Of a DNA stretch of 20,315 bases, positions 332-18,558 are shown piece after piece; within the stretch, counting starts at the first letter, position 1, and each line of letters starts with the position of its first letter. Under the pieces are notes generated by a model that did not search any database, was not told the origin of the DNA, and worked only from the letters and a program-made list of their open reading frames with translations. Origin of the DNA: a virus; the IMG/VR virus record IMGVR_UViG_3300045581_000804, positions 1 through 20,315 of that record. One strand, given 5' to 3'. A program made the position numbers and the translations under genes.

Positions 332-336
332 CATGT

Positions 337-777
337 ATGGAAAAAAAGCACGTTAGTTATGAATATATTTCTTTCATAGTCGATCTATTAGAGCAACGCG
401 TTTGTAAAGACTATGATTTTATTGTAGGTGTAGGTAGAGGAGGTCTTATTCCTGCAACAATGCTAGCATATAAGCTTAAAAAGAAAGTAGTTTGTTTTGG
501 TATTAACACTTACGATGATATGGTTCAAACAGACAAATATGTTATATACCAGCCTATACCTGTACATACTGCTAAGAAGAAGGTGCTCGTGGTGGATGAT
601 ATTTGCGACACAGGTAATACATTTAACATTATAAGAGACATCTATCAAAAAGAAGCTCATTATGAAATAGAATTTGCGTCATTGTTTGTTAGGGATAGTA
701 AATCTCATTTAGTAGATTATTATGGCTTATCAGTATCGGATGGTATCTGGTTATCTTTCCCTTGGGATGATGTTTGA
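337..777 (+). CDS. Purine phosphoribosyltransferase (Gpt/HGPRT-like)
   Basis: A 146-residue type I phosphoribosyltransferase. It would transfer the phosphoribosyl group of PRPP to a purine base, that is, salvage of hypoxanthine, xanthine or guanine. The PRPP-binding motif VLVVDDICDTGNT is at residues 83-95, and an N-terminal GVGRGG loop is at 31-36. The C-terminal WLSFPWD recalls the tryptophan-rich end of bacterial Gpt enzymes, so a xanthine/guanine type is slightly favoured, but the substrate is not certain. I chose ATG 337 over an upstream in-frame start at 232. The extra 35 residues are hydrophobic, lie over the neighbouring gene, and precede the promoter, whose -10 (TACAAT) ends 5 nt before 337. 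An unrelated ATG at 333 is out of frame. The gene is the first of a short cluster leading to nrdB/nrdA, which suits a nucleotide-supply role. Confidence 0.85.
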   Translation: MEKKHVSYEYISFIVDLLEQRVCKDYDFIVGVGRGGLIPATMLAYKLKKKVVCFGINTYDDMVQTDKYVIYQPIPVHTAKKKVLVVDDICDTGNTFNIIRDIYQKEAHYEIEFASLFVRDSKSHLVDYYGLSVSDGIWLSFPWDDV

Positions 778-7555: not shown

Positions 7556-7584
7556 TTGAAATACGTTTGGAACTACTATATAAT
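7556..7584 (+). promoter_or_regulatory. Strong sigma70-like promoter, leaderless spacing, for the TGT/DpdA-like gene
   Basis: TTGAAA at 7556-7561, a 17-nt spacer, then TATAAT at 7579-7584. The ATG at 7591 follows after 6 nt. This is the best sigma70 match in the window and supports ATG 7591 over the in-frame TTG at 7567, which would lie upstream of the -10. Confidence 0.75.
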
Positions 7585-7590
7585 AGATTT

Positions 7591-8391
7591 ATGTTAGTAT
7601 CCCATGAAACTCCAATTAGTTTTCTCGCTCAATCGAGATCGTATAATGATTATGATTATGCTCTAGTTCATTTGTTTGAAACTCATCCTGAATATTATAA
7701 CTTCTTTAAAAGTAGTCTGCTACAAGGTAGAGAAGTACTTCTTGATAATTCTATCTTTGAACTCAAAGAATCGTTTAACCCTGAAAAGTATGCGGAGTAT
7801 GTACGAGAGTTAAAGCCTACATATTTTATTGTCCCAGATGTTCTAGAGGATGCTACTGCTACAATGGAATCATATACTAGCTTCCGTAGCAAGTATATGG
7901 ATCTTCCTGGTATGTGGATTGGAGCAATTCAAGGTAAAGCATATGATGAAATAGCTGAGTGTTATGCATATATGTCAGCGTTTGCGGATTATATTGCTAT
8001 TTCGTTTGACTTCTCATGGTATCAACAAATAGGTAAATCTCAAAGCTTTGATCCACAACTGCAGAAATTAGAGCGTATGTGTGATGGTCGTCAGAAGCTC
8101 ATTAGAATGCTTATTGCGGATGGCTTGTGGAATCATAATAAGCCACATCATTTGTTAGGAAATTCTCTGCCTCAAGAAATGCTACATTACAGAGACTTAC
8201 CTAGCATAAGATCTGTAGATACTTCAAATCCGGTAATTGCAGGTATCCATAATATTAGATATATTAAAAATTACGGCATGCGTTTGAAGCCATCCGTTAT
8301 GCTGGCAGATCTAATCGATCATGAAGTTACTGGAGAAGAAGCTGATGATATATTATATAATGTAGCAGAATATAAAAAATTATGTTTGTAG
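7591..8391 (+). CDS. tRNA-guanine transglycosylase-like base exchanger (DpdA-like)
   Basis: A 266-residue protein that I read as a compact TIM barrel of the tRNA-guanine transglycosylase (TGT) superfamily, which swaps guanine for a 7-deazaguanine base. Motifs in order are LLDNSIFE (50-57), PDVLED (82-87), GAIQG (111-115, cf. TGT GIVQG), a strand-rich segment DYIAISFDF (133-141), HHLLGN (186-191, cf. YLMGVG) and SVDTSNP (208-214). D52 or D83 and D210 are candidate acid/base and nucleophile. The zinc cysteines of tRNA TGTs are not seen (only C124, C164 and C265), and it is shorter than bacterial TGT (about 375). Phage DpdA proteins of this kind act on DNA. Having QueF three genes downstream makes a DNA 7-deazaguanine role much more likely. 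The family call rests on motif reading, not on a search. Confidence 0.62.
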   Translation: MLVSHETPISFLAQSRSYNDYDYALVHLFETHPEYYNFFKSSLLQGREVLLDNSIFELKESFNPEKYAEYVRELKPTYFIVPDVLEDATATMESYTSFRSKYMDLPGMWIGAIQGKAYDEIAECYAYMSAFADYIAISFDFSWYQQIGKSQSFDPQLQKLERMCDGRQKLIRMLIADGLWNHNKPHHLLGNSLPQEMLHYRDLPSIRSVDTSNPVIAGIHNIRYIKNYGMRLKPSVMLADLIDHEVTGEEADDILYNVAEYKKLCL

Positions 8392-8399
8392 TTAGTTGA

Positions 8400-8413
8400 T
8401 CTACTGCAGTAGA
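8400..8413. repeat. 14-bp perfect palindrome upstream of a late box
   Basis: TCTACTGCAGTAGA is its own reverse complement. It ends 1 bp before the late box of the homing endonuclease gene. It could be an operator or a symmetric protein site; as RNA it has no loop. It may also be chance. Confidence 0.5.
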
Positions 8414-8414
8414 G

Positions 8415-8422
8415 AATAAATA
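8415..8422 (+). promoter_or_regulatory. Late-type box for the first GIY-YIG gene
   Basis: AATAAATA ends 5 nt before the ATG at 8428. It places a late-expressed homing endonuclease inside a cluster otherwise driven by sigma70-like promoters. Confidence 0.6.
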
Positions 8423-8427
8423 TAAGA

Positions 8428-9180
8428 ATGATATATGCCTATAGGACAATTAATATTATTAATGGAAATTATTATTTTGGTATACATAAATCTGTAACCG
8501 GAAATATTGATAATTATATTGGCTGCGGTATTAGACGTCAGAGTGATGCTAGGCTTAATAATAGGTTTCATAATGCTGTAAGAAAATATGGTTACGAGAA
8601 TTTTAAAGTTACTGTTATTATGTTTTTTTCGTGCTATGAAGACGCCTTATCATGGGAAAGAGAGTTTTTAACAAAAGAGGTTGTAGCTGATTCTCGATGC
8701 TATAATTCTAAGCTAGGCGGTAAGGGTGGTGGTTATATATGGAGTGACGAGAGGAAAAAGTATCATAAAGAAAATAATACCTATAAAAAAAGCGATGATA
8801 TGAAGAACAAACTTAGACAATCGGCTATTAATCGCTTTAGTAAGGAGTGCGGTACATTTCAGGGTAAAAAACATACGATCGAAACAAAAAAACGCTTATC
8901 TGAATCGCGTAAAGGAGTAATTAGTAAGAATAAAAATAAGAAATTAAATCTGACAGAGGGTCAGAGAATTTTAAAGAGGGATCTTTTTTTAAAAAATGCA
9001 CATAGCCGGGCAGTGGAGGTAAATAGAAAATTTAGTATTGAGGTGGAAGAAGAGATTAAAAGTAGGTACAGTGGTGCTAGAGGTGAGAAAACAAGTTTAG
9101 CTAAAGAATATAACTGCTCTATATCTCTAATAACTAAATTGGTAGGTAAAAGCTTTAAGCATAAAAAGTATGAAAGTTGA
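8428..9180 (+). CDS. GIY-YIG homing endonuclease with NUMOD3-type DNA-binding part
   Basis: A 250-residue free-standing homing endonuclease of the GIY-YIG (Seg-like) family, which cuts target DNA so that its own gene is copied into the break. The nuclease core is residues 1-100: divergent GIY and YIG strands (IYAYRT and NYYFGIHKS), an Arg helix around R47-R52 (RFHNAVRKYGYENF), the metal-binding Glu at E77 or E79 (SWEREF), and the closing CYNSKLGGKGGG. Residues 135-165 (FQGKKHTIETKKRLSESRKG) match the NUMOD3 minor-groove helix motif. The Lys-rich C-terminus with SLAKEYNCSISLITKLVGKS reads as a helix-turn-helix. Its last 11 nt overlap the start of the formyltransferase gene, and it separates that gene from the TGT/DpdA-like gene, so it looks like an insertion into the modification cluster. 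Confidence 0.88.
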   Translation: MIYAYRTINIINGNYYFGIHKSVTGNIDNYIGCGIRRQSDARLNNRFHNAVRKYGYENFKVTVIMFFSCYEDALSWEREFLTKEVVADSRCYNSKLGGKGGGYIWSDERKKYHKENNTYKKSDDMKNKLRQSAINRFSKECGTFQGKKHTIETKKRLSESRKGVISKNKNKKLNLTEGQRILKRDLFLKNAHSRAVEVNRKFSIEVEEEIKSRYSGARGEKTSLAKEYNCSISLITKLVGKSFKHKKYES

Positions 9181-9751
9181 TCTTAATAAATTAAAATGGG
9201 CTGCACTATTTTCGCAGACGGGATCAGAAATATGTAACCTATCGGAAAAGATAGGTACATATCCTAATCTTGTAATATCTGATAATGTCGATATTAATAA
9301 TTCTTTAGACAGTAGAATAGAACTTAATTGTAAAAGAATACTTTGGAGAAAATATAAAGGATTAACTAAAGAAGAGAAGGTATTATATTATACTAGACAC
9401 TTAATTGGATATGATGTTATAACTCTTCATGGATGGCTTAACATCGTACCAGCTGAAGTATGTGATGCTCTTAGCATATATAACGGACACCCCGGTTTAA
9501 TTAATTATTACCCAGACTTAAAGGGAAAAGATCCACAGGTGAGAGCGTGGGGAGACATTAAGAGATACGATGTTCTCGGCAGTGTTGTACATAAGGTAAC
9601 TCCAGGTGTGGATGAAGGTCCGATAATTTGCTACAGTAAGAAATCTATAATCGGTATAGACAGTCTCGATAAAGTATTTGATACTCTCAAAGAGACATCT
9701 TTGGATTCATGGGTTGATTTTTTTAATAATAAACGTTATAATATAGTATGA
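9170..9751 (+). CDS. Formyltransferase-fold enzyme (PurN/Fmt family)
   Basis: A 193-residue enzyme with the catalytic signature of N10-formyltetrahydrofolate-dependent formyltransferases: N105-x-H107 in YNGHPGLINYYPD (cf. NxHPSLLP) and D148 in VTPGVDEGPII (cf. GVDxGPI). The N-terminal strand KWAALFSQTGSE (9-20) resembles the PurN nucleotide-binding loop. It is close to PurN (about 212 aa) in size, but the sequence around the substrate pocket differs. Acting as PurN (GAR formylation) is possible, since T4-like cyanophages carry purN. Its place between a DpdA-like gene and queF instead suggests formylation of the primary amine of preQ1. It overlaps the upstream endonuclease gene by 11 nt; only a weak -10-like CATAAA lies ahead (9160-9165). 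Fold is secure, substrate is inference. Confidence 0.83.
   Translation: MKVDLNKLKWAALFSQTGSEICNLSEKIGTYPNLVISDNVDINNSLDSRIELNCKRILWRKYKGLTKEEKVLYYTRHLIGYDVITLHGWLNIVPAEVCDALSIYNGHPGLINYYPDLKGKDPQVRAWGDIKRYDVLGSVVHKVTPGVDEGPIICYSKKSIIGIDSLDKVFDTLKETSLDSWVDFFNNKRYNIV
9714..9742 (+). promoter_or_regulatory. Sigma70-like promoter, leaderless spacing, for the P-loop kinase gene
   Basis: TTGATT at 9714-9719, a 17-nt spacer, then TATAAT at 9737-9742, with the ATG at 9748 after 5 nt. It sits inside the end of the formyltransferase gene, which itself overlaps the ATG (ATGA). Confidence 0.65.
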
Positions 9752-10299
9752 TAATTAGCTTTTCAGGTGCGCAATCTACGGGTAAAAGTACTCTATTAAG
9801 TGAGTTTCAGAAGAAGGTTCCTGAATGGGATTATATACCTGAGGTTACGAGGTTAGTTAAAAGAGAGTATGATCTTCCTATCAATGAGGATGGTAATGAT
9901 CTAACTCAATTTATGATTATGGGTGAGCATTTGCGTAATGCATATGCAAAGAGAGATAAGGCTGTAGTATTAGATAGGTGCTCGTTAGATGGTCTTGTTT
10001 ATACTCATTGGCTTTGTGACAAGGAGAAAGTATCGATGAATGCTTTTTTGTATGCAAGATATGTCTTTGAAAATACTATTAACAAATATGATTTAATTTT
10101 CTATACTTCGCCTGAAGATGTTCCTGTAGTAGATGATGGAGAAAGAAGTATTAATGTTGAATTTCGTAATGAGATAATTGATACTTTTGAAAGGTTTATG
10201 AAATCAGATGAGGTACCGTCTTATAAGATAGTAAGGGTGAAGGGTACTGTAGAAGAGCGTATGGAGCAGATATTTGGCGCTCTAAGTATAGGTATGTAG
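9748..10299 (+). CDS. P-loop kinase/NTPase of the AAA_28 (NadR-like) type
   Basis: A 183-residue P-loop protein. Walker A is GAQSTGKST (7-15). A second acidic motif, VVLDRCSLDGLVY (73-85), supplies the Walker B/kinase aspartate. DLIFYTSPEDVPVVDDGERS (about 115-134) is the strand-plus-loop that carries the specificity and lid region in NadR-type ribosylnicotinamide kinases. The family phosphorylates nucleosides or small metabolites. The substrate here is unknown. NAD salvage is one option; given the neighbours, a kinase for a modified nucleoside or nucleotide is another, with no direct support. The start overlaps the upstream stop (ATGA), yet the gene has its own strong promoter, so both linked and independent expression are expected. 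The P-loop call is firm. Confidence 0.87.
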   Translation: MIISFSGAQSTGKSTLLSEFQKKVPEWDYIPEVTRLVKREYDLPINEDGNDLTQFMIMGEHLRNAYAKRDKAVVLDRCSLDGLVYTHWLCDKEKVSMNAFLYARYVFENTINKYDLIFYTSPEDVPVVDDGERSINVEFRNEIIDTFERFMKSDEVPSYKIVRVKGTVEERMEQIFGALSIGM

Positions 10300-10313
10300 A
10301 CTTAAAAATAATC

Positions 10314-10341
10314 TTGAAAAATACAACAGTTAGATTATAAT
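10314..10341 (+). promoter_or_regulatory. Sigma70-like promoter, leaderless spacing, for queF
   Basis: TTGAAA at 10314-10319, a 16-nt spacer, then TATAAT at 10336-10341, with the ATG at 10347 after 5 nt. The intergenic space has no Shine-Dalgarno. Confidence 0.72.
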
Positions 10342-10346
10342 AAATT

Positions 10347-11288
10347 ATGGCATCGAAAACTAAATTAGATAATACAGCAATCGGAAGGCATTTGGGTAAA
10401 TCCTCTGCTTATATTTCATCCTATGATCCTACGCTTCTCGTAAAAGAGCCTAGGCAGTCAAATAGAACGCATCTAGATATTAGAGAAGGTGATCTACCTT
10501 TTGTAGGATTTGATACCTGGAATGGTTACGAGGTTACTGGTCTTACAAATAATGGCTTGCCCGTTACAGGAATTTGTAAGTTTGTTTACCCCTGTAATAG
10601 CAAATATATTGTAGAATCTAAATCAGTTAAGCTATACTTTAACTCATTTAGTATGACTAAGCTTGGTAATACTGCAGAAGAGGTTCTTAAAGAAATTGAG
10701 AATCGTGCTGTAAAAGATCTTTCTGAATTGGTTGAGTCTAAAGTAAAAGTAACTATGCTTTCTAACTACGAAGCTCTTTGCGATAAAAGAAATGCGATGG
10801 ACGAATGGAATCATGATCGTAGCGTAGGTGATTCATATATTACTCTAGAAGATGAGTTTCCGGTTGTTGTATCTGATTTAGTATTTAAACACTATACTGA
10901 GACTCCAGAGGTTTTGAGAGTTATTGATTCCGTTACAGGTTGCGAAAAGTATCATAGCTCTTTACTTAGATCTCTATGTAGGATTACTTCACAGCCTGAC
11001 TCAGGTGATGTATATATTCATATTGAAGGTAATAAGACTATTGATCCTATTTCTCTTCTTGAGTATGTAGTTTCGTTTAGAGATGAGAATCACTTCCATG
11101 AAGAGATTTGCGAGGCTATCTATAAAAGACTTTGGGACGTACTCAAACCTACTAAGCTTGTTGTTAAGTGTCTCTATGCAAGACGTGGTGGGTGGGATAT
11201 TAACCCAGAGAGAGCTTCTGATAGAGAATTACTTCACAGCAACCTTAAGAATTCAACTTCGCTTCATATCAAGATGCCTAGACAATAA
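10347..11288 (+). CDS. queF: 7-cyano-7-deazaguanine reductase QueF, bimodular
   Basis: A 313-residue bimodular QueF (E. coli 282 aa), the NADPH-dependent T-fold enzyme that reduces the nitrile of preQ0 to the aminomethyl group of preQ1. The N-terminal module has LGKSSAYISSYDPTLL, PFVGFDTWNGYEVTGL (51-66) and the QueF signature ESKSVKLYFNSF (90-101). The C-terminal module has the covalent-catalysis Cys C211 (LCRITSQPDSG) with D218, the substrate-contact VSFRDENHFHE (242-252, H251/E252), and the end YARRGGWDINPER. All known active-site residues appear intact. In bacteria QueF feeds queuosine in tRNA. In a phage next to a TGT/DpdA-like gene it more likely makes preQ1 for insertion into phage DNA. 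No QueC/D/E or FolE is in this window, so preQ0 must come from the host or from phage genes elsewhere. Followed by a strong terminator. Confidence 0.94.
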   Translation: MASKTKLDNTAIGRHLGKSSAYISSYDPTLLVKEPRQSNRTHLDIREGDLPFVGFDTWNGYEVTGLTNNGLPVTGICKFVYPCNSKYIVESKSVKLYFNSFSMTKLGNTAEEVLKEIENRAVKDLSELVESKVKVTMLSNYEALCDKRNAMDEWNHDRSVGDSYITLEDEFPVVVSDLVFKHYTETPEVLRVIDSVTGCEKYHSSLLRSLCRITSQPDSGDVYIHIEGNKTIDPISLLEYVVSFRDENHFHEEICEAIYKRLWDVLKPTKLVVKCLYARRGGWDINPERASDRELLHSNLKNSTSLHIKMPRQ

Positions 11289-11312
11289 TATATCTATATT
11301 ATCGTTGACTAT

Positions 11313-11343
11313 AAAAACCGCTATCTAAGATAGCGGTTTTTTT
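11313..11343 (+). terminator. Strong intrinsic terminator after queF
   Basis: CCGCTATC (11318-11325) pairs with GATAGCGG (11329-11336) over a 3-nt loop. The stem is extended by A5/T5 and followed by a 7-T run (11337-11343). The A-run on the other side makes it potentially bidirectional. It isolates the modification cluster from the structural genes. Confidence 0.9.
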
Positions 11344-14352: not shown

Positions 14353-17184
14353 ATGGCATTTATTCTTGACATAACCAAACGAGCCGCGACTGAAGGCGTG
14401 TCCGCCGTCAGCATCACATTTGAAGAGTGGTTTACCGCTAATGACAGCTTGCAGGCTGGCGACTACATAATGGTGTGCGCTGTAAATGCAAGCGGTTTGA
14501 ACGCGCTGACGCTGACAAGCGCCACTGGAACATGGACGCGCTTGAATAATGTCGACACTCCGCGAGCCTCGAACTTCCGTGCGCAAATTTGGTGGCACAA
14601 ATATAATGGAACGACTCTTCCCACCGCTCCCACAGCCAGCGGTGTGTCGGCAGGCTGGGCAGCATTTGCTTGGGTCGTGCGAGATGCGCCCGATGTGGTT
14701 GATGAATCGTGGATCGATGCAACAGCGCGGGTAGATGCTGGTGCCGTTGCTACTGCCCGTGTATTTTCTCTCCCAAGCGTCACAACGACAGCCGCTGATA
14801 CTCTGTTGCTCGCGGTTTTTACAGCTGGTACTGCCGCTGGTTTTGAAACGCCTGACAATTTTTGGGGAGTCGATTTTTCCATTGGTCGAGTCAGCGACAA
14901 CAGCACGATCTCAAATCCTACGGTTCGCGCCACCGTTGCAAGCCGCGCACAATACGCCGCCGGCGCAACGCCCGCTTATGACTATGTTTCTGGCACGGCG
15001 ATCCGCGCGCAGTATTGGACTATTGCTATTAAAAACAAAGTTGGCGGGACAAAGCCCGTGGGGATCATTAACCCACCTACTCGCATCACGGATTTTTACA
15101 ACAACGACACGTTCTCAGTCGCGAGTCTGTCAAGCCTATCGACTCTGCACGCCACGATTGACGGCCAGCCGACATTCGCTCCAGCGTCGATTGGAGCTGT
15201 CATAAGTAACAACGGTGTGGTCACAAATAATCCACCTATTTTGGACTGGTTTAGAACGATCTCCATCACGCCGCCGACTGCGGCGACGGGCGTTTCTGGC
15301 GTGTATTGGACACTGCCGAGCGCCACCGATTACACGGCGGGGTTGTGGTGTCTATTTTTTCAGCGTGCGGTGGTAGGATCGGACGGCTTAGACGGTGTCT
15401 ATCACTACTTCGCAGACGCGGCCGGGAACTGGTCTGTTTATCGTCCGCTTAACCGCTTCGAAGGATCTTCCTACAACACGCTCGTGCGACATCTTCCTGA
15501 CGAAACGCGAGTGGACGGCAGCGTAACACCTCCCAACCTCAGTGCCATCACACGGCGCGGAATCGCGTATCGGCAAATTTCATCCAGCGCTGGTGCGCGA
15601 GCATTTAACCTGCGGGCAGAGTGTGTCCAGCCATTTACTGCTCCACTTACTTTGGTCGGTGGAGGATCGGCCAACCCAATCACGGCGAGGATGGTGGCGC
15701 GAATGCTGACCTCTGGCGCAGCATGGAGGCTTGCTTTCGTGCAGGGGCAGGCGCAGCAGGTCATCGCCATGCCCTATCAACTGGGTAACGGTACTATTGA
15801 GACCTATGTATACAACGAAGCGCAGGCGCTCGAATATCCGCGAGTTGGAGGTGTGCTGGGCTACACGGTGCTATCCAACAGGCAGGAAATCCGCATCAAG
15901 GCAAGTGCGGACGACACAATCAGCCTGGCAGCAGGCATCAAAGGCACATCGCAGCAGCAAGACTTTGTGATCGACCCTGCCAGCAGCACCAGTGCGAGCT
16001 ATGGATTTGAGGGAACGTTCCTCGGCTGGAAAGTCACCGGGAAAACTGGCGTGCCGCTGGAAGGCGCGACATGGATCGGATGTTCCAAAATCGACGGCAA
16101 GGGTGGCAGCTACGATAACTGCACGTTCCGATCTGGCACATCCACCGACGCGGCTTTGCGACTGGAAAACGGCGGCAGCGCAGCAGGCGCGGCATTCGTG
16201 AAGGGCGCAGAGACCTACGCCATCGAAATACAAGGGACAGGCACGATCAACATCGCTGAAGCTACGTTCTCTGGCTACACTAAGCCTCTGAACATTCTTG
16301 CCAGCAGTGGTACCGTTACAATTGAACTCGGACCAGACGATGCACAGCCCACCTATGACACTGCAGGCGCGACGGTAGTGTTCGATCAAGCCGTCGTGCA
16401 GTCAACGGCTAGCGTCGAGTGGACGCAGACTGGCTCGTCGGTACAGGTTTATAATGTCACCAGCGACACTGAGATTTACGCCGAGGCAGCGGTATCAGGA
16501 ACTTCTTGGTCGCTGAGTTACACCCCACCTACTAGCTTTGATGTAGGTGATATAGTGCGTGTCCGTATCCGCAAGGCTGGGTATGAGCCTATCGAAGCAA
16601 CAGCTATTGTCGGCAGCACGGGCTGGTCAGTGTTCGGTGATCAGGTGGTGGATCCCCGCTATACCGCAACAACGCTAGCTAACTACACCGTAGACTACCC
16701 AAATAAGAAAATCCGCGCTACAGGATCCCGCGCTCAGTTTTTGGCACAGGAAATCGTGGACATCGTACGACAAGCCGAAACCACGCTTGATGGAATTCGG
16801 TTACCCGAGTTTGCAGCTGTATCTGGCTTGGTTACCTTGTCATCAGGTGTAAGCACCGCTCTTACAGTAAAACTAGAAGGCTGGCAGCTCTCTTGGGCAT
16901 CAGGTAGTGTTCCACAAGCTACAGTCAGCGGCGGTAACGTCGTTGGCGGTATTATGGATGATCCTGTTGAGGATATTGTAGGTGGTCCGCAGGTTACGGT
17001 AAACTTATCAGCGGCAGCAACGCAGGTAAGTGTAGGGTCTGGTGTATTACCAAGTGATATTACAGCCATTGCAGAGGCGGTTTGGAATGCCGCGCTTACA
17101 GATCATCAAATAACAGGAACAACTGGCAAAGCACTTGATAAAGCAGAAAAAAATGCCGCATTAGCTGCAGCGCTCAGTGTATAA
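14353..17184 (+). CDS. Large GC-rich tail fibre/receptor-binding-type protein, horizontally acquired
   Basis: A 943-residue structural protein. One line near its middle (15241-15300) is about 62% G+C by hand count, against about 32% in the neighbouring native fibre gene (12661-12720), and the antisense frames stay open as GC-rich DNA often does. Residues 1-230 are a beta-sandwich-like unit rich in Ala/Thr/Val with Trp (AGWAAFAWVVRDAPDVV). Residues 230-520 form a probable second globular part (GLWCLFFQRAVVG, NRFEGSSYNTLVRHLPDE). Residues 560-690 show beta-helix turns (GATWIGCSKIDGKGGSYDN, ALRLENGG, IEIQGTGTINIAEATFSGY). The C-terminal 150 residues (VEDIVGGPQVTVNLSAAATQ, ITAIAEAVWNAALTDH) are of a type found in tail proteins of proteobacterial phages. 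G+C falls to about 48% near 17041. Host-recognition role is inferred from position and fold. Confidence 0.8.
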   Translation: MAFILDITKRAATEGVSAVSITFEEWFTANDSLQAGDYIMVCAVNASGLNALTLTSATGTWTRLNNVDTPRASNFRAQIWWHKYNGTTLPTAPTASGVSAGWAAFAWVVRDAPDVVDESWIDATARVDAGAVATARVFSLPSVTTTAADTLLLAVFTAGTAAGFETPDNFWGVDFSIGRVSDNSTISNPTVRATVASRAQYAAGATPAYDYVSGTAIRAQYWTIAIKNKVGGTKPVGIINPPTRITDFYNNDTFSVASLSSLSTLHATIDGQPTFAPASIGAVISNNGVVTNNPPILDWFRTISITPPTAATGVSGVYWTLPSATDYTAGLWCLFFQRAVVGSDGLDGVYHYFADAAGNWSVYRPLNRFEGSSYNTLVRHLPDETRVDGSVTPPNLSAITRRGIAYRQISSSAGARAFNLRAECVQPFTAPLTLVGGGSANPITARMVARMLTSGAAWRLAFVQGQAQQVIAMPYQLGNGTIETYVYNEAQALEYPRVGGVLGYTVLSNRQEIRIKASADDTISLAAGIKGTSQQQDFVIDPASSTSASYGFEGTFLGWKVTGKTGVPLEGATWIGCSKIDGKGGSYDNCTFRSGTSTDAALRLENGGSAAGAAFVKGAETYAIEIQGTGTINIAEATFSGYTKPLNILASSGTVTIELGPDDAQPTYDTAGATVVFDQAVVQSTASVEWTQTGSSVQVYNVTSDTEIYAEAAVSGTSWSLSYTPPTSFDVGDIVRVRIRKAGYEPIEATAIVGSTGWSVFGDQVVDPRYTATTLANYTVDYPNKKIRATGSRAQFLAQEIVDIVRQAETTLDGIRLPEFAAVSGLVTLSSGVSTALTVKLEGWQLSWASGSVPQATVSGGNVVGGIMDDPVEDIVGGPQVTVNLSAAATQVSVGSGVLPSDITAIAEAVWNAALTDHQITGTTGKALDKAEKNAALAAALSV

Positions 17185-17778: not shown

Positions 17779-18558
17779 ATGAGGAATAAAACTTACGAGC
17801 TTTATATAACGAAAAATAACGTTACAGGGTGCGTGTATGGAGGAAAACATAGCTATATAAATAAAAGAGGTATATATTTAGGCTCAGGATTTAGACTTAA
17901 AAGAGCGTTTAAAAAATATGGAAAGGAAAATTTTTCAGTTCGTGTACTTCGTTTACAGATAACTAACGAAGAGGATATGAATATTAAAGAAATTAGACTT
18001 ATACGTTTATTGAGATATATATTTAAAGATAAATGTTATAATATACATAAAGGTGGTAGTGGAGGAGATTATTATAAATATCTTACTCCTGAGGAGAGAC
18101 TTGAAGTAAATCTACGTATTAGTAAGAGTAAAAAGTTACAGTATAGTAGAGGTGAAACTGAGGCTCAAAAAATAGGCTATAAAAAGCAATCAACCACTTT
18201 AAAAGAAAAAAATAAAAATGATTTAGAGTATCGTGAACGCATGCTAGACGTATGGCGTAATAAAGGTAGAGCTCTATCTGATAGGATAAGGACTCGCGGA
18301 TTAACAGTTAGCGAGATAGCGCGTAATAAAAATAACGCTATAAAACAGACACGACTTTACGATATATTAATATCGTATCCGTCAGGTAATAGTGAAACTA
18401 TTACTATAAATTCAAAGAAATTTAAAACAATTTATAAAACAGACGATAGTATGTTTTCTACCTTACGTAAAACTGGTATGTACATAGTAAACATACGACG
18501 ATCAACTACCAAACATCCTTTTCCTTTAGGCACTAAACTTACAATTTTATATACATAG
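17779..18558 (+). CDS. GIY-YIG homing endonuclease next to the capsid gene
   Basis: A 259-residue endonuclease with a GIY-YIG core in residues 1-100: YELYITKNNVTGCVYGGKHS (first strands; GIY and YIG are divergent), YLGSGFRLKRAFKKYGKENF (the Arg helix), the metal-binding Glu at about E71 (NIKEIRLI), and CYNIHKGGSGG closing the domain. The remaining part is basic. I see no NUMOD3 repeat; TVSEIARNKNNAIKQTRLYDI and SMFSTLRKTGMYIVNIRR may form a helix-turn-helix for DNA recognition. It differs in sequence from the endonuclease at 8428 apart from the core, so the two are probably separate arrivals. It lies convergent to the major capsid gene, a place where T4-like phages often carry such genes. A double hairpin separates them. 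Confidence 0.83.
   Translation: MRNKTYELYITKNNVTGCVYGGKHSYINKRGIYLGSGFRLKRAFKKYGKENFSVRVLRLQITNEEDMNIKEIRLIRLLRYIFKDKCYNIHKGGSGGDYYKYLTPEERLEVNLRISKSKKLQYSRGETEAQKIGYKKQSTTLKEKNKNDLEYRERMLDVWRNKGRALSDRIRTRGLTVSEIARNKNNAIKQTRLYDILISYPSGNSETITINSKKFKTIYKTDDSMFSTLRKTGMYIVNIRRSTTKHPFPLGTKLTILYT

Follow-up and report, generated by a model that had tools for sequence, protein, structure and literature searches.

Phages are known to carry 7-deazaguanines in their DNA: measurement of phage DNA has revealed dPreQ1, 7-deazaguanines protect phage DNA from restriction (PMC6884629), and in Campylobacter firehammerviruses a 7-deazaguanine derivative replaces all deoxyguanosine (PMC10273834). Here we analyse a stretch of 20,315 bases of viral DNA (IMG/VR record IMGVR_UViG_3300045581_000804; hereafter, the window), a piece of a marine-type phage with genes for a major head protein, a ClpP-like head protease and a ribonucleotide reductase. 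On its plus strand, dpdA (a DNA guanine transglycosylase gene), a GIY-YIG gene, a formyltransferase gene, a P-loop kinase gene, queF and a terminator follow one another (7591–11341; Table 1), and we propose that these form a DNA-hypermodification operon in which, probably, DNA guanine is replaced by N-formyl-preQ1, with the formyltransferase and the kinase acting as set out below.

The same operon is found in Flavobacterium phage vB_FspM_immuto_2-6A (NC_055915; hereafter, immuto), which encodes dpdA, a small open reading frame (ORF), a formyltransferase (gp204), a ‘thymidylate kinase’ and queF, the four shared genes standing in the order and orientation of the window. DpdA is 46% identical to the immuto protein (annotated ‘DNA guanine transglycosylase’), and the identities for the formyltransferase, kinase and QueF are 42%, 34% and 43%, respectively; a phosphoribosyltransferase gene lies near in both. 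The window differs in having a GIY-YIG homing endonuclease gene between dpdA and the formyltransferase gene and in lacking preQ0 genes within these 20 kb, and none of its other genes was found in the 40-kb stretch of immuto compared. A formyltransferase paired with DpdA and QueF, with N-formyl-preQ1 as the predicted product, also likens the window to the fdPreQ1/DpdN system: Cui and colleagues are said to have described, in 2023, the formylated base fdPreQ1 and a predicted dPreQ1 formyltransferase, DpdN, and reportedly named DpdA3 as the subfamily permitting complete guanine replacement. The DpdA studied here presumably belongs to this subfamily, which we take to be defined by complete replacement. 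In Campylobacter phage CP220 (a Firehammervirus), a homologous kinase gene lies directly downstream of dpdA, and the window DpdA is approximately 41–42% identical to the CP220-group protein over 99% of its length; CP220 differs in having no formyltransferase beside these genes and, as we take it, in its final base, dADG, which is not a preQ1 derivative.

We assign DpdA to the TGT (tRNA-guanine transglycosylase) fold because of its predicted structure, given that sequence searches (Pfam, NCBIfam, phmmer and hmmsearch against the PDB, and hhalign to Escherichia coli TGT) gave nothing significant. The AlphaFold model, for which 40 homologues drawn from IMG/VR loci and the window served as input, has a pLDDT of 95.6 and a pTM of 0.91, and all 50 PDB matches listed by Foldseek are TGTs (best E = 1.4e-8). 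Even homologues with as little as 23–27% identity keep residues D52, D83 and D210 without exception, and nearly all keep Q114; by motif, rather than by superposed coordinates, these four appear to match the residues that in TGT carry out catalysis and line the base pocket. In the hhalign alignment with E. coli TGT, which is of low probability, QGK pairs with QGS and HHLLG with RYLMG. The protein is thus modelled as a TGT-fold DNA guanine transglycosylase, for which insertion activity on DNA is predicted. Among other phages, a DpdA-like domain is fused to a C-terminal DUF3310 domain in Rhizobium phage RHph_I1_18 (locus L174, 3941–5209), and a DUF3310 gene directly precedes dpdA in locus L158.

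The formyltransferase has N105, G106, H107 and D148 at these positions, and N105, H107 and D148 are invariant across 11 homologues. Its score against the PurN family is 40 bits, with a cut-off of 150, and in a maximum-likelihood tree a very long stem and 100/100 support separate the clade of operon formyltransferases from PurU, Fmt, ArnA and the PurN proteins of E. coli, cyanophages and a clostridial genome; on family score and tree together, we reject a canonical PurN. Matches from Enterococcus and from faecal ‘phages’ group with ordinary PurN in the same tree. The sole relative found in cellular genome contigs lies directly 3′ of a dpdA gene on a contig of a Clostridiales metagenome-assembled genome, and as MazG and DUF3310 genes precede this pair and a PolA gene follows it, the contig is probably phage. 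The sequence-only reading of this DNA had called the 7591–8391 product TGT/DpdA-like and the formyltransferase catalytically intact at N105, H107 and D148, and had counted a missing TGT fold or a tight grouping of the formyltransferase with canonical PurN as evidence to the contrary; neither came about, the predicted fold and the invariant residues agreeing with the first two statements and the tree placing the protein outside PurN. In several loci, a conserved protein of approximately 115 residues (phrog_1485, no Pfam match) with the motif FCKKQFDYGPGNISLG adjoins the formyltransferase or is fused to it; it presumably resembles small nucleotide-modification-associated proteins.

QueF matches QueF structure 3bp1 in the PDB (1.5e-39) in addition to both of its Pfam domains and carries the E. 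coli-type Cys, Asp, His and Glu motifs (C211, D218, H251, E252 and E90). Genes for the supply of its substrate are found in related phages: immuto encodes FolE, QueD, QueE and QueC, and a 122-kb sister contig of locus L005 (dpdA 68% and formyltransferase 73% identical) encodes FolE, QueD and QueC together with a QueE-like radical-SAM ORF.

To assess how well the operon is conserved, 126 loci with DpdA were clustered at 95% identity of that protein, which gave 75 clusters. The order dpdA–kinase–queF is present in 35 of the 75 clusters and dpdA–formyltransferase–kinase–queF in 23, and in a further two the contig ends after the formyltransferase gene; the four-gene order is common to immuto and the eight IMG/VR contigs found with the formyltransferase. 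A gene order shared with immuto and more than 20 contig clusters cannot be due to chance. In eight further loci, dpdA is displaced by approximately 7 kb and the formyltransferase gene still abuts the kinase gene; that dpdA had seemed to stand alone there proved to be an artefact of a 5-kb cut, as the kinase gene lies that far downstream, with the formyltransferase gene before it and queF after it. Between the displaced dpdA and the formyltransferase–kinase–queF genes, locus L065 (8806–13735; L077 alike) encodes a CHASE2-adenylate/guanylate cyclase, curli-type CsgG and CsgF and a short repeat protein, so that this phage contig holds genes of cyclic-nucleotide and secretion functions. In a single case (L101, 9369–10340), a gene of the GMP reductase/IMP dehydrogenase family stands inside the four-gene operon, which fits purine salvage linked to guanine exchange.

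Within the window, the ORF for the GIY-YIG protein overlaps the start of the formyltransferase gene. A GIY-YIG gene is present at the dpdA/formyltransferase junction in the window and in L026 and absent in L003–L006, and L009 and L010 have a different GIY-YIG-like ORF there; this gene is an insertion that interrupts the operon and lies outside the modification pathway. The sequence-only reading, which had described four genes in one block closed by a terminator, was right about the genes and about the terminator (strong, with a 13-pair stem) and had left the inserted gene out of its list.

The place between dpdA and the kinase gene can hold a different enzyme. In three of the 75 clusters, the order is dpdA–GNAT–kinase–queF, and the GNAT acetyltransferase in question passes the Pfam cut-off (Acetyltransf_1, E = 2e-6). 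Its three copies lie on separate contigs (Table 1), and two of them are 84% and 65% identical to the query copy. That a formyltransferase and an acetyltransferase exchange at one place points to acylation of the same kind of group, and the product of QueF has a free primary amine; an acetyltransferase in the place of the formyltransferase is expected if the gene in this slot acylates a primary amine. The slot would then be an exchangeable acylation cassette, filled by a formyltransferase here and by a GNAT in sister phages. The latter is a candidate preQ1 N-acetyltransferase, and that the DNA of these sister phages contains an acetylated 7-deazaguanine (N-acetyl-preQ1) is a possibility to which we give slightly less than even chances; we know of no report of this compound as a DNA base.

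The kinase is a NadR/AAA_28-type P-loop protein with the Walker A motif GAQSTGKST at position 7, and the best PDB matches of its AlphaFold model (pLDDT 89.8) by Foldseek are deoxyadenosine kinase, deoxycytidine kinase (dCK), TMP kinase and NadR. A nucleotide-type kinase accompanies this type of DpdA in all 121 scoreable loci (those with a clear kinase, several drawn from the same contig), with or without a formyltransferase; the nearest partner gene upstream of the kinase gene is dpdA in 66, the formyltransferase gene in 45 and the GNAT gene in 10. Because the kinase stays with DpdA when the formyltransferase is absent (35 contig clusters; CP220), a part in formylation is ruled out, and it would instead serve the base exchange. 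Other short DpdAs adjoin other kinases: a TMP-kinase-like gene in Bacillus phage BSP7 and Weizmannia phage Youna2, an AAA_18 kinase gene in Cellulophaga phage phiST and Chryseobacterium phage MA9V-3 and, in Aeromonas phage Ahp1 (L175, 3983–5966), a T4 gp1-type dNMP kinase gene (DNMK, 1.7e-17) that follows a DpdA-like gene and precedes a dCTP deaminase-like gene. Four different kinase families thereby accompany DpdA across phages. In phage 9g, the one classical DpdA1 control examined, no kinase gene adjoins dpdA. Beside the queE/queD region, sister contigs (L019, 6253–6984; L021, 4501–5259) encode a further kinase, which belongs to the family of the window kinase and is longer.

In the pathway that we propose, preQ0 would come from FolE, QueD, QueE and QueC encoded elsewhere in the phage, as in sister phages, or from the host, and QueF would convert it to preQ1. 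The TGT-fold DpdA would swap guanine for the 7-deazaguanine base, and the formyltransferase, with 10-formyl-tetrahydrofolate as donor, would formylate preQ1 at its free aminomethyl nitrogen, yielding 7-(formylamino)methyl-7-deazaguanine. The kinase would aid the base exchange generally, most simply by returning the purine released in large-scale exchange to the deoxynucleotide pool, in which the phosphoribosyltransferase (Table 1) and, in L101, the GMP reductase may join it. The end product would be guanine-modified DNA that resists restriction. That the phage DNA holds preQ1 or N-formyl-preQ1, as the sequence-only reading had suggested, is the reading best supported by the DpdA–formyltransferase–kinase–QueF operon, the TGT fold and the position of the formyltransferase outside PurN, and we consider it likely. 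Two components named in that earlier reading now look different in part: its complete QueF does have both domains and the catalytic motifs and is divergent, and its P-loop kinase, confirmed as such, had been given no role and is here tied to DpdA.

Several points weigh against this interpretation. No preQ0 genes were found within the 20-kb window, and QueF scores 232.4 bits against the NCBIfam equivalog TIGR03138, below its cut-off of 293.45; judged by sequence, it is a divergent member of its family, and the score leaves unsettled whether its activity is that of QueF or QueF-L-like. As for the acceptor of the formyl group, which we infer from gene context and the GNAT swap, free preQ1, a nucleotide and DNA are all candidates, and the part of the kinase in base exchange is deduced from the company that it keeps. 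What the analysis shows directly is which genes are present, how their products fold, which active-site residues they keep and how the operon is conserved; it is these that suggest the substrates, the order of the steps, the extent of replacement and the protection conferred.

One alternative to exchange on DNA is exchange at the nucleotide level. A short DpdA could act on a guanine deoxynucleotide that is not part of DNA, such as dGMP, and replace its base, after which the kinase would phosphorylate the product towards the triphosphate, a polymerase would install it and the formyltransferase would act on the base or the nucleotide. The constant presence of a deoxynucleoside/TMP-kinase-fold protein with DpdA, irrespective of the formyltransferase, fits such a route, as do its presence in CP220 (from a genus in which all deoxyguanosine is replaced), the different kinases beside other short DpdAs (BSP7, Youna2, phiST, MA9V-3 and Ahp1) and the kinase-free surroundings of DpdA1 in 9g, although this is only one classical control. 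MazG-like pyrophosphatases are also encoded nearby in immuto, phiST and L158, and PolA in immuto, BSP7, Youna2 and L158; however, eight large contigs in the T4-like group lack both MazG (PF03819) and PolA, so neither is a universal partner of DpdA. A likeness may be seen to Z-genome phages (2-aminoadenine; PurZ/MazZ/DpoZ), in which base replacement likewise involves nucleotide enzymes, yet the enzymology is unrelated (PurA-like versus TGT-like), and action of DpdA3 on nucleotides is here a hypothesis. Crippen and colleagues reportedly detected, in 2019, no dADG phosphates in infected cells. As DpdA is, in the prevailing view, taken to act on polymerized DNA (PMC12783734; PMC12707154), we prefer exchange on DNA and regard a nucleotide-level route as unlikely.

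Two further alternatives were considered. The nearest characterized relatives of the formyltransferase by sequence are PurN proteins, and cyanophages carry PurN, so that the gene might be an ordinary auxiliary metabolic gene for purine biosynthesis that stands in the operon by chance. Its low PurN score, its separate long-stemmed clade, its retention beside dpdA or the kinase gene in tens of contigs and its replacement by a GNAT gene in others make this very improbable. We give as little credence to the idea that the operon modifies tRNA or raises queuosine in host tRNA. QueF and the TGT fold do belong to the queuosine pathway, but QueA uses the preQ1 amine, which formylation would block. For phages that have preQ0 genes but lack DpdA, a role in boosting queuosine in tRNA has been suggested (PMC6884629); here, however, the transglycosylase belongs with the phage DpdAs, as its identities to the immuto and CP220-group proteins indicate, and is far from TGT in sequence. 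Hypermodification of DNA with N-formyl-preQ1 remains our preferred explanation.

Table 1 Features of the operon, its surroundings and related loci (window coordinates unless a locus is named; aa, amino acids)
Feature	Position	Strand	Evidence and remarks
Phosphoribosyltransferase, possible guanine-salvage partner	334–774	+	Pribosyltran 4e-13; membership of the operon uncertain
Promoter-like site TTGAAA-17-TATAAT	7556–7584	+	11/12 consensus matches; directly 5′ of dpdA; placement suggestive, nothing more
dpdA, DNA guanine transglycosylase, 266 aa	7591–8391	+	phrog_19058 2e-56; AlphaFold TGT fold
GIY-YIG/NUMOD3 homing endonuclease	8428–9180	+	phrog_314 9e-24; Pfam GIY-YIG
Formyltransferase, predicted preQ1 N-formyltransferase, DpdN-like, 193 aa	9170–9751	+	Formyl_trans_N (Pfam) 4e-8
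P-loop protein of deoxynucleoside/nucleotide-kinase fold, 183 aa	9748–10299	+	AAA_28 6e-18
Promoter-like site TTGAAA-16-TATAAT	10314–10341	+	11/12 matches; directly 5′ of queF; weak evidence
queF, predicted preQ0 nitrile reductase (to preQ1), two-domain type, 313 aa	10347–11288	+	QueF_N 7e-31; QueF 6e-21 (Pfam)
Intrinsic terminator ending the operon	11313–11341	+	13-pair stem, 3-nucleotide loop, T-run
GNAT acetyltransferase between dpdA and kinase	L098 8798–9349; L100 8801–9346; L103 8801–9382		Acetyltransf_1
phrog_1485 protein, approximately 115 aa	L101 10337–10684; L104 2200–3129; L130, L132, L133, L135–L139		fused to the formyltransferase in L104; after the formyltransferase in L130, L132, L133 and L135–L139

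The two best sigma-70-like sites of the region lie 5′ of dpdA (7556) and of queF (10314), in a scan that as a whole is at background. The phosphoribosyltransferase gene is kept near the operon in L004, L006 and L009, and the immuto copy lies between queE and folE. Scanning the window with Rfam and for tRNAs gave no match, and PADLOC found nothing relevant in it. A second relative of the homing endonuclease (phrog_314, 1e-21) is encoded at 17779–18558, and a 943-residue ORF at 14353–17184, probably tail-fibre-like and without a family match, has a GC content of approximately 55%, compared with approximately 34% elsewhere; recent acquisition from a GC-rich source and a chimeric join are both candidate explanations.

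Much of this system is already known, given the 7-deazaguanines of phages, the operon of immuto and the formylated base and DpdN reportedly described in 2023, and the window is a further example. The predicted formyltransferase does stand in the operon, as the sequence-only reading had it when proposing that the cluster may supply the gene for the formyl step, and this gene is not new, immuto being annotated with the same operon. The exchange of the formyltransferase for a GNAT and the general association of kinases with DpdA were not found in the accessible literature, the scope of which leaves out key papers; to our knowledge, neither appears in the 2023 work of Cui and colleagues, and both provisionally appear to be new. 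These loci take formyl-preQ1-type DNA modification beyond the single cultured phage annotated with it and into a large number of uncultured ones, with dpdA–kinase–queF as the core and a slot between dpdA and the kinase gene that accepts different acyl-transfer genes. Two questions thereby become testable, that is, whether phages contain 7-deazaguanine in N-acetylated form and whether it is on DNA or on nucleotides that guanine is completely replaced, and for the latter the link between DpdA and kinases of four families offers a concrete handle.

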